Shown piece by piece: positions 40,076-42,553 of a stretch of 64,000 bases of DNA (the stretch's first letter is position 1; each line of letters begins with the position of its first letter). The translations under genes and the position numbers were made by a program. Origin of the DNA: Adlercreutzia sp. ZJ176 (GTDB lineage: Bacteria; Actinomycetota; Coriobacteriia; Coriobacteriales; Eggerthellaceae); contig NZ_JAAKEC010000002.1 of the NCBI RefSeq assembly GCF_011038975.1, positions 1 through 64,000 of the forward strand, written 5' to 3'. The notes beneath the pieces were generated by a model. That model had not been told where the DNA came from. It ran no database searches and saw only the letters and a program-made list of their open reading frames with translations.

Positions 40076-40090
40076 TTGCGCTCGCCTTTC

Positions 40091-40293
40091 GTGTCATCTC
40101 GGGCCGAGCGCCTGCGTCATGTGCTCACTCCGTGTCATCCCGAGCGGAGCGCCCGCATCGCGTGTCCACTCCGTGTCATCCCGGGCCGAGCGCCCGCGTC
40201 ACGTGTCCATCTCGTGTCATCCCGGGCTGAGCGCCTGCGCATGTGTCTACCCCGTGTCAGCCCGGGCTGAGCCCCGCGCTATGTGCCCACTCC
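40091..40293. repeat. Five tandem 40-41-bp repeats
   Basis: Units start at GTGTCAT at 40091, 40132, 40173, 40214 and 40254. Each reads roughly GTGTCATCCCGGGC(C/T)GAGCG, then CCTGCGTCATGTG and CCACTCC. The units are multiplied copies of the left outer arm of the composite inverted repeat that follows at 40295. Confidence 0.88.
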
Positions 40294-40294
40294 G

Positions 40295-40420
40295 TGTCAT
40301 CCTGAGCGGAGCGCCCGCAGGGCGCGGAGTCGAAGGATCTGGTCGCAGGCGGGTTGCGCATGCGAACATGCCATGCTTGGGGCCAGATCCTTCGACTCGC
40401 TTCGCTCGCTCAGGATGACA
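40295..40420. repeat. Composite inverted repeat, copy 4
   Basis: TGTCATCCTGAGCGGAGCGC, GAGTCGAAGGATCTGG, a 40-bp centre with GCATGCG, CCAGATCCTTCGACTCGC and CTCAGGATGACA. It is nearly identical in layout to copy 1 and in the same orientation. Confidence 0.92.
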
Positions 40421-40569
40421 CAGCGGGTGGGACGCGTCGTTCGGGCCACCGGCCTTCTCGACTTCACGCCTTCCAAGGCTCGCTCAGGATGACACGGCGG
40501 GTGGGACGCGTCGTTCGGGCCATCGGCCTTCTCGACTTCGCGCCTTCCAGGCGCTCGCTCAGGATGACA
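40421..40569. repeat. Two direct 74-75-bp repeats of the right arm
   Basis: Two units (40421-40494, 40495-40569) each run from C(A/G)GCGGGTGGGACGCGTCGT through CTTCTCGACTTC to GCTCAGGATGACA. They multiply the right outer arm of copy 4, mirroring the left-arm array on the other side. Confidence 0.85.
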
Positions 40570-40611
40570 CAAGGGGGTATCCCTCTTGGAGATGCCGCAT
40601 GGGCTTCCCCC

Positions 40612-40896
40612 TTAGGTGGTGCTGAGGTCTTCGAGGTGGGGGTTGGTCTTTTGGATGAGCTTCAGCTTCTTCGCCCTCGTCCAGCCTTTGAGCTGCTTCT
40701 CGCGTCTGATCGCCTCCTCGACGTCGCAGGTCTGCTCGAAGTAGATGAGGTCGGTCGCGTTGTACCGGTCGGTGAAGCCCGGCGCGAGGTGCTGCTTGTG
40801 CTGGGCCACGCGGCGGGCGAGGTCGCTCGTCACGCCCACGTAGAGCACAGTGCGCTGCACGTTGCTCATGACGTAGACGTAGTAGCCCTCCGCCAT
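40612..40896 (-). CDS. GIY-YIG nuclease-domain protein
   Basis: The 94-residue protein is a stand-alone GIY-YIG domain of the YhbQ/UvrC-N type: YYVYVMSN holds the first motif, VLYVGVTSDLARRVAQHK the second with the catalytic Arg, and EEAIRREKQLKGWTRAKKL the Glu-containing end. The cellular role of such small members is unclear. The start codon lies at the end of a 41-bp tandem array that extends from dgt; AAGGA in the last unit is its likely ribosome site. Confidence 0.88.
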   Translation of the reverse strand: MAEGYYVYVMSNVQRTVLYVGVTSDLARRVAQHKQHLAPGFTDRYNATDLIYFEQTCDVEEAIRREKQLKGWTRAKKLKLIQKTNPHLEDLSTT

Positions 40897-40898
40897 GG

Positions 40899-40937
40899 TC
40901 AGACGTCCTTGAGATTTATGCAGCAGGTGCGGGCCAT
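40899..40937 (-). CDS. Mini reading frame 4 of the dgt-tail array
   Basis: Reads MARTCCINLKDV and stops. AAGGA at the end of the previous unit lies nine bases before its ATG. Its own AAGGACGTC end could serve the GIY-YIG start, separated by CC only. Translation is possible but unproved. Confidence 0.3.
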   Translation of the reverse strand: MARTCCINLKDV

Positions 40938-40939
40938 GG

Positions 40940-40978
40940 TCAGACGTCCTTGAGGCTCGCGCAGTGGACTCGGGCCAT
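40940..40978 (-). CDS. Mini reading frame 3 of the dgt-tail array
   Basis: Reads MARVHCASLKDV and stops. ATG and TGA are spaced exactly as in the other units, with AAGGA of the preceding unit nine bases upstream. Confidence 0.3.
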   Translation of the reverse strand: MARVHCASLKDV

Positions 40979-40980
40979 GG

Positions 40981-41019
40981 TCAGACGTCCTTGAGATTTA
41001 GGCAAAAGACTCGGGCCAT
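40981..41019 (-). CDS. Mini reading frame 2 of the dgt-tail array
   Basis: Reads MARVFCLNLKDV and stops. The preceding unit offers CAGGA rather than AAGGA, a weaker ribosome site. Confidence 0.3.
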   Translation of the reverse strand: MARVFCLNLKDV

Positions 41020-41021
41020 GG

Positions 41022-41060
41022 TCAAGCGTCCTGGAGATTCGAACAGCGGGTGCGGGCCAT
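41022..41060 (-). CDS. Mini reading frame 1 of the dgt-tail array
   Basis: Reads MARTRCSNLQDA and stops, closest to the dgt tail VARTYCANLQDA. The ATG replaces the GTA codon of dgt at the same place in the unit and lies two bases after the dgt stop. Confidence 0.3.
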   Translation of the reverse strand: MARTRCSNLQDA

Positions 41061-41062
41061 GG

Positions 41063-42304
41063 TCAGGCGTCCTGGAGGTTTGCGCAGTAGGTGCGGGCTA
41101 CGATGCGGCGGTCGCTTCGGGGGAAGAGGTGGCGGTAGAGGGCCATGAAGTAGGCGTCGGTCATGGAGGCCAGGTAGTCGACCACGATCTGGTGGGGGTC
41201 GCCCGCGAGGTAGTCCTCGGCGCGCACGGTGCGGGAGGTGCGCGTGAGGGAGGCCACGTGGTGCGTGACCACCGGCGAGCTCTCGTCGCCGCGCGCGAGG
41301 TCGTCGAGCAGGCGTGCGTACATCTCCTCGAACATCTCCTCCACGACGTTCTCGGTGTCGCCGACCATGCCCTCCTTGAGGTAGATGAGTTCGTAGTTCT
41401 GCCGCTTGGCGCGCTTGAGGTCGGCGAAGGCCGCCTCGCTCATGCGGATCTCGTCGCGCCCGTAGCTCTCGTTCACGATGTCCACCGTGAGGTTGTTGAT
41501 GATGTGCGCGTTGTCCACGCCGATGTAGTCGCTCTCGAAGGCGTCGAGGGAGGGGAGCGCGCCCATCTCGAGCGCGTCCTGGCGGTCCTTCCCCACGTAG
41601 GCGATCATGTCGCTCACGCGCACGACGCACCCCTCGAGCGTCGAGGGGCGCAAGCTGCCGATCACCTGCTCGTCGGCGTTGCAGGCCGCAACGAGCGCGT
41701 CGAGCTGCGCGAAGCTCGCGGCGTCCCCGCGCCGCAGCACCTGGCAGCAGAACTCGCCGTTGTGACAGAGCACGCCGTCGAGCGTCTGGAGCGAGACGTT
41801 GCGGCGGTACAGGGCGTCGAGCACGCGCACCGAGTGCACGTTGTGGTTGAAGTAGCGGCCCGTGCGCGCGTGGAGGCTCTTCGACAAAAAGCGCTCGCCG
41901 GCGTGCCCGAAGGGCGTGTGCCCCACGTCGTGCCCGAGCGCGATGGCCTCGATGAGGTCGCAGTTCAGCCCCAGAAGCGCGCCGATGCCGCGCGCGATGC
42001 GGCTCACCAGCTGCACGTGCAGCCCGCGGCGGCAGATGTCATCGTTCTCCACGAACGAGAAGACCTGCGTCTTGCCCGCGTAGCGGTTGTAGGCCGGCAC
42101 GTTGAGGATCTTCTCGATGTCGCGCGTGAAGGCGCCGCGCGCAAGCGTGGCCGCGTCATGCGGGTTGTCCTCGCGGCGCACGACGTCCTCGTCGGCGAAG
42201 CGCGCGGGGTGCGCGCGCCCGGCGGCGCGGTCGGCGCGGATGGCCGCCTCGACGGCGGGGTCGAGCGTCAGGTAGGGAATGCTCCGTGCGGCGTGGTGGG
42301 TCAT
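41063..42304 (-). CDS. dgt: Deoxyguanosinetriphosphate triphosphohydrolase-like HD protein
   Basis: The family hydrolyses dNTPs to nucleosides and triphosphate. The 413-residue protein has the HD-domain ligands in FTRDIEKILNVPAYNRYAGK, ALGHDVGHTPFGHAGERFL and RVSDMIAYVGKD. ATG 42304 has AAGAGG five bases upstream. The last 12 codons (VARTYCANLQDA) lie in the first unit of the tandem array, so the present C-terminus is the source of the array. It is divergent from the membrane-protein/dnaG unit. Confidence 0.92.
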   Translation of the reverse strand: MTHHAARSIPYLTLDPAVEAAIRADRAAGRAHPARFADEDVVRREDNPHDAATLARGAFTRDIEKILNVPAYNRYAGKTQVFSFVENDDICRRGLHVQLVSRIARGIGALLGLNCDLIEAIALGHDVGHTPFGHAGERFLSKSLHARTGRYFNHNVHSVRVLDALYRRNVSLQTLDGVLCHNGEFCCQVLRRGDAASFAQLDALVAACNADEQVIGSLRPSTLEGCVVRVSDMIAYVGKDRQDALEMGALPSLDAFESDYIGVDNAHIINNLTVDIVNESYGRDEIRMSEAAFADLKRAKRQNYELIYLKEGMVGDTENVVEEMFEEMYARLLDDLARGDESSPVVTHHVASLTRTSRTVRAEDYLAGDPHQIVVDYLASMTDAYFMALYRHLFPRSDRRIVARTYCANLQDA

Positions 42305-42553
42305 AAGCGCCTCTTCTCACGTGGGGTGTTTGCGCTTTATTGTATCCTCAACGCAGCGGTGTTTTACACTGTGAGCAAGCAAAACCTCAAGGTATGCGCG
42401 GCGGCGCGCAGGACGTGTCGTGCGGCGAGATGCGGGACGGCGTGACGTGGCGGCGCAGGGCGCGCGGGATGCGCCCGACGTGGCGGCGTGGCGCAAAGCG
42501 CGCGGGATGGCCTGACGCGCGGCGCGCGCGGGCATGTGGCAGAAAGGCGGGGC

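Follow-up and report, generated by a model that had tools for sequence, protein, structure and literature searches.

What is a row of very short reading frames doing at the end of a gene, and how did it come to be there? The question is raised by the 3′ end of a dgt-like gene in Adlercreutzia sp. ZJ176, which we analysed within a window of 64,000 nucleotides (the whole stretch of DNA under study). The end of this gene forms the first of five tandem 41-bp units, and the last unit leads directly into the start of a gene encoding a GIY-YIG nuclease:

41063..42304, minus strand: dgt-like gene for an HD-domain dNTP triphosphohydrolase of 413 aa (ORF, Pfam, NCBIfam)
41061..41101, minus strand: unit 0 (D), the dgt tail, VARTYCANLQDA-stop-CC (sequence reading)
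41020..41060, minus strand: unit 1 (U1), MARTRCSNLQDA-stop-CC (sequence reading)
40979..41019, minus strand: unit 2 (U2), MARVFCLNLKDV-stop-CC (sequence reading)
40938..40978, minus strand: unit 3 (U3), MARVHCASLKDV-stop-CC (sequence reading)
40897..40937, minus strand: unit 4 (U4), MARTCCINLKDV-stop-CC (sequence reading)
40612..40896, minus strand: gene for a single-domain GIY-YIG nuclease of 94 aa, with its start in the last TGACCATG link (ORF, Pfam)

Each of U1-U4 is exactly 41 bp long and consists of ATG, 12 codons, TGA and CC, and the last 39 nt of dgt fall within unit 0. All five links read TGA-CC-ATG, and A/CAGGA stands 9 nt ahead of each of their ATGs; the fifth link is the start of the GIY-YIG gene (ATG at 40896-40894), for which the AAGGA of unit 4 provides a Shine-Dalgarno-like site. 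An earlier, sequence-only reading had described five such units beginning with the dgt 3′ end, together with their peptides, their links, the AAGGA or CAGGA nine bases ahead of the next ATG and the final link to the GIY-YIG gene, and all of this is confirmed by the sequence. As in coupled mini-ORFs, a stop and the next start lie a few nucleotides apart with a Shine-Dalgarno-like site upstream; as in bacterial minisatellites, a unit of tens of bases is copied head to tail, TRF reporting a period of 41 bp, 5.0 copies and a score of 218. A 43-nt pattern of the array, allowing up to three mismatches, was matched four times in the window and not once in 100 shuffles. The array thus exceeds chance as a repeat, and only moderately so as a chain of frames.

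Pfam analysis of the dgt product returned HD (2.2e-7) and HD_assoc (2.5e-5), and its best score against the NCBIfam dGTPase models was 3.2e-53, yet under the curated cut-offs. The product of the downstream gene matched Pfam GIY-YIG at 2.9e-16. Relatives of this nuclease (E <= 0.001) were found in 21 of 138 genomes of the family, the source genome included, and the two other genomes of the genus contained no match at that threshold. Between 40500 and 42500, neither strand showed a promoter-like site, and the minus strand lacked anything resembling a terminator. Among viral contigs, none matched the unit pattern of the array and none encodes a dgt relative, and five GIY-YIG relatives were present at 45-53% identity. 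On the 5′ side of dgt, the window also holds a 38-bp tandem duplication (42452-42524).

How unusual is the array? No convincing copy was found elsewhere in the source genome, where the best other match had an E-value of 0.998. When the 138 family genomes were searched for pairs of exact TGACCATGGC junctions separated by 24-54 nt, this array was the only one recovered, and the array DNA gave weak family matches of ~30 bp each in two genomes (G041 and G123; E 0.008-0.01). The protein served to locate 41 dgt loci in contigs of GTDB species, of which 39 were put through TRF, over a region that began 200 nt ahead of where the protein match ends and reached at most 400 nt beyond it (one truncated and one distant locus were dropped); none of these 39 other dgt 3′ ends carried an array of this type, and two contained unrelated repeats. 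The sequence-only reading had proposed a comparison of the dgt 3′ region across relatives for unit number and for conservation of ATG, TGA and the cysteine; by these counts (1 of 138 family genomes by the exact pattern, 0 of 39 other dgt ends) the arrangement is not shared across relatives in the way that would support coupled mini-ORFs.

Of 396 genomes from the class, 11, the source genome among them, contain a run of three TGANNATGG junctions. Twelve other class loci from 10 genomes, two of them overlapping, were re-read for linked frames, and a run of four linked mini frames was found only at the dgt array. In a tandem repeat at one of these loci, L105, a mini frame of 11 codons leads through a TGA-CG-ATG link directly into one of 12; at L101 and L098/L103 the linked frames are single, and they are absent from the remaining eight of the 12. 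The L105 frames (1501-1588, genome G078) read MGGKLRGLRSR and MGGWKLRGLRSR, and their tandem repeat adjoins palindromic repeats. A further class locus (L092, genome G189) bears a 24-bp tandem repeat with copies of MARRSSLI in one frame, upstream of a possible gene start.

The array stands in a genome that is full of such repeats. TRF output merged to 101 arrays with a period of at least 20 in 464 kb of source DNA. This corresponds to 21.8 arrays per 100 kb, whereas two relatives, sampled over 200 kb each, have 7.5; many of the source stretches had been chosen for their repeats, and the density was 19.2 per 100 kb in six that were not so chosen and 17.2 in the window. Tandem repeats of 20-80 bp are unusually abundant in this DNA (the window and L142-L161), and among same-strand neighbouring cores of palindromic repeats less than 200 bp apart, six of 12 are spaced by 38-41 bp. 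Two further arrays lie beside the one at dgt:

40403..40571, strand not assigned: the TCATCCTGAGCG palindromic repeat in tandem, 74 bp per copy (TRF)
40090..40318, strand not assigned: second, unrelated ~41-bp array of palindromic TCATCCYGRGC repeats (TRF, 5.7 copies), a natural control

The control array, 0.6 kb from the dgt array, contains no recognised gene and is apparently non-coding. On its minus strand, three consecutive 14-codon frames are linked by ATGA, the remaining units not being joined. In the 464 kb, the dgt array and this control array are the only places where at least three frames form a chain through TGANNATG or ATGA links; in 200 kb of each of the two relatives there were none, the longest chain being two. 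Since apparently non-coding repeats also yield linked mini frames, a chain is a cheap by-product of any repeat unit that happens to contain an ATG and a stop.

These observations bear on the origin of the array. Neutral slippage, which the sequence-only reading had offered as an alternative, is well supported as the origin by the wealth of minisatellites in this genome and by the unit boundary, which fits a slip between GTAGC/CCGC in dgt and ATGGC/GGAG at the next start, as read from the sequence. That the array is a slippage-born minisatellite is strongly supported, and it is from this fit and this background that we infer the slippage itself. If replication slipped across the junction at which the dgt stop meets the next gene's start, 41-bp copies would result, each with a body derived from dgt and an ATG derived from the gene that follows. 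Every copy would be a 12-codon mini gene because 41 bp hold the last codons of dgt, AGGA, TGA and the next ATG. At any copy number, the GIY-YIG gene would retain the same AGGA-stop-ATG ahead of it, and translation of the units could come from ribosomes that finish dgt and re-initiate along the chain or from new ribosomes loading at any of them, so that the array would be at least harmless to expression of the nuclease. Weak selection for the junction would then keep the start region and leave the interior free to change. A slippage-born minisatellite with weakly selected junctions and non-functional peptides is our best reading of the locus, with a probability of roughly 0.57.

The weak selection in this reading rests on how the units differ. 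Across U1-U4, 15 of 41 sites vary, and 12 of these lie in an interior of 16 nt (12 of its 16 sites); the remaining 25 nt, spanning -17 to +8 of each ATG and here termed the shell, are nearly invariant. Under permutation of U1-U4, the best 16-nt window had a P of 0.002 and the longest invariant run one of 0.013. In U2-U4 all 11 variable sites are interior, which leaves an unbroken invariant stretch of 25 nt (P 2e-5, for a subset chosen post hoc). On a tree of the five units, one of several equally good, 20 changes fall in the 16-nt interior versus five in the 25-nt shell. None of the 10 sites of the translation signals (ATG, stop, AGGA) varies in U1-U4; among the 15 shell sites outside these signals, three vary in U1-U4 and none in U2-U4.

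As an empirical null, the clustering test was applied to the DNA sampled from three genomes, taking every TRF row that showed variation and had 2.9 copies or more; there were 46 such tandem-repeat rows, some of them overlapping. The dgt array (P 0.001, or 0.0017 unweighted) was the sole row below 0.05, the next standing at 0.065; corrected for 46 rows, its P-value is about 0.05, which is borderline. By the longest-run statistic it was the lowest of 37 rows from its own genome, at a P of 0.012 that alone fails correction. A spread of variation over the whole unit, which is typical of minisatellites without defining them, is not seen here. In a neutral simulation with 21-24 changes, all four frames were kept in 2.8-4.2% of runs, and the frames plus AGGA in 0.17-0.40%. 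The span of the shell is close to the usual translation-initiation region. The links of the array hence look constrained, with moderate support: the conserved part of each unit is its initiation region, as would be predicted by the coupling of dgt to the GIY-YIG gene that the sequence-only reading suggested, and sites without a translation signal are conserved too, which such signals would not by themselves require. Selection on a wider initiation region, or homogenisation over short tracts, would each give such a shell.

Comparison with the closest relative, genome G001, provides a view of the same gene end in a sister species. Its dgt is 95% identical, and it has neither the array nor a GIY-YIG match. 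After its dgt stop, 16 bases (GGCGCCTGACGATGGC) recur 43 bp further on with one change, a recurrence equalled once when the following 200 nt were shuffled 20,000 times. By eye, the interior of this vestige is unlike the dgt tail; a frame of 10 codons runs from its first ATG to a TAG, and ATA stands in place of the second ATG. Perhaps the junction was duplicated there too, or perhaps a remnant survives; as a vestige it is doubtful, and no chain of mini genes appears to have been kept. The sequence-only reading held that relatives whose units freely lose ATG or stop would speak against it. This doubtful vestige is the only such case, and G001 has no GIY-YIG gene to couple.

The dgt tail of G001 differs from D at seven sites, of which five are in the shell and two among the 16 of the interior. 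The shell is thus not a mutational cold spot. Set against the absence of shell changes in U2-U4, the changes between species give a Fisher P of 0.0025; against U1-U4 the value is 0.052. Furthermore, pS among the units is 0.41, versus 0.095 between the two dgt genes. As the units are more diverged than the genes, either the array predates the split and was lost in the sister species or the interior changes fast; slippage and ordinary mutation fail to explain the divergence of the units unless there was such an older, lost array or the site mutates rapidly.

The peptides themselves bear no mark of selection. In interior codons 4-8, four of five third positions and seven of 10 first and second positions are variable. 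The pN/pS of the units is 0.58 in frame; the true frame does not stand out, as the two other frames give 0.87 and 0.49. Rare codons account for 10 of 44 in U1-U4, by a set of codons rare in this genome that was chosen after looking. An interior that varies like non-coding DNA and uses rare codons makes functional peptides unlikely, and the purifying selection expected of a micropeptide family is not apparent in the interior variability or in pN/pS. The cysteine lies within YCxxL, an end shared by 29 of 30 other Dgt tails compared, and may be simply inherited as part of it. The suggestion in the sequence-only reading that the units make Cys-containing micropeptides is not supported: first and second positions vary like third positions, rare codons are used, and the cysteine lies in the common Dgt end. 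At the RNA level, each of U1-U4 folds worse than its shuffle mean (z +0.64 to +2.36), as does the stretch holding the whole array, which is open.

Two other kinds of element were considered and rejected. A hairpin array or RNA-structure attenuator is ruled out, given that the array and its four units fold less well than the shuffle mean, and so is a CRISPR-like array, the interiors being diverged copies of the dgt interior instead of unrelated spacers.

The main competitor of the best reading is a purely neutral minisatellite, made by slippage and drift, whose frames and junctions would owe their survival to luck or to homogenisation by recombination, with nothing depending on them. We regard this as a serious possibility, at rather worse than even odds. 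It accords with the richness of the genome in minisatellites, with the lack of an array in the sister species, with linked frames in repeats that have no known coding role (three next door, two in L105) and with conservation that reaches past the translation signals, as short conversion tracts could produce. It sits less easily with clustering that only this one of 46 rows displays, with the rarity of frames plus AGGA under chance (0.17-0.40%) and with the between-species changes in the dgt tail, five of seven of which are in the shell that is unchanged among U2-U4 (P 0.0025; 0.052 for U1-U4). At the other end stands a strong form of the best reading, the odds of the two overlapping: a selected relay or attenuator in which a chain of re-initiation cistrons meters translation of the nuclease, the ribosome-binding footprint being conserved, the peptides filler, and the number of units a dial that sets how many ribosomes reach the GIY-YIG gene, so that slippage would tune the dose of nuclease. 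The AGGA at 9 nt, the TGACCATG links, the near-invariant region from -17 to +8 and the open RNA are what such a device would need, and an effect in cis on the gene that follows is known for a two-codon mini-ORF (PMC8708949). However, the array occurs in one family genome only (138 searched, exact pattern), and each unit has its own AGGA, so initiation at the GIY-YIG gene may not need the chain; we consider the relay a fair hypothesis, if a rather unlikely one.

The remaining two explanations are less probable still. In one, the units would be a series of targets for the adjacent GIY-YIG nuclease, which would cut within their interior, and error-prone repair would then duplicate the site and scramble the part that was cut. 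The gene does adjoin the array, the changes are concentrated in the interior (20 at 16 sites versus five at 25, on one of the best trees), and the sister species, without the nuclease, has a dgt-tail interior that differs from D at only two of 16 sites. A putative association with other tandem repeats, found by TRF within ~450 bp of five of 13 other GIY-YIG genes (L066, L070, L071, L083 and L087), points the same way, but none of those repeats has a 41-bp period, and 11 of the 15 variable sites in U1-U4 show transitions only, as in ordinary mutation; this explanation strikes us as improbable. Lowest of all we place micropeptide genes, 12-mers of the form MARxxCxNLxDx with a function of their own. 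Start, stop and cysteine are kept in all four units, but the changes at residues 5 and 7 are radical, rare codons are present, the in-frame pN/pS of 0.58 is not distinct from 0.87 and 0.49, and the cysteine is that of the YCxxL end common to 29 of 30 other Dgt tails, which leaves this reading hardly credible.

Stop-start translational coupling is known from operons, where a Shine-Dalgarno-like site lies inside the upstream frame. The array resembles such coupling in its TGACCATG links with a Shine-Dalgarno-like site in the upstream frame, and differs in having the junction five times in series. Like a bacterial minisatellite (VNTR), it is built of imperfect 41-bp copies in tandem, here at the end of a gene and in a genome where arrays of this sort abound; unlike one, it varies mainly in the interior, keeps the stop-start junction and is made of closed frames. 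The nearest published parallel is mg2 of axe-txe on pRUM of Enterococcus faecium, tested with reporters in E. coli, a two-codon mini-ORF which can act in cis and for which the distance from stop to start is important (PMC8708949). The array shares with mg2 as described there a very short frame that has a start and a stop to itself and lies immediately ahead of a gene, but in place of one two-codon frame it has four 12-codon units in tandem, all copied from the end of the preceding gene (PMC8708949). No tandem minigene array of this kind was recognised in the literature, judged by titles and the beginnings of abstracts. If the junctions are indeed kept as the interiors drift, the array would be a natural series of near-identical re-initiation sites, which could serve to measure ribosome passage between consecutive short frames, and it would show slippage adding cistrons without breaking an operon. 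If it is neutral, it would be a caution that repeats with an ATG and a stop per unit mimic convincing mini-gene chains for free.

The nuclease gene leads to an observation of its own. Close GIY-YIG relatives in the family (L063-L071, L083-L087; 40070-40896 in the window) often adjoin TCATCCTGAGC palindromic repeats: such a repeat lies within 350 bp of nine of 13 GIY-YIG loci, and on both sides of five of 13, versus 0.8-6.5% and 0-0.1%, respectively, for random sites in DNA sampled from three genomes. The pairing looks like a partnership of nuclease and repeat. REP elements and their transposases follow a comparable logic. Nothing recognisable as a nuclease-repeat partnership of this kind was found in the literature by titles and the beginnings of abstracts. 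In three of the loci (L063, L064 and L083, from genomes G065, G022 and G067), the GIY-YIG domain and a class I (E and Q) tRNA-synthetase domain share a single open reading frame, as checked with Pfam for most of the G065 copy and as read from the sequence in the other two.
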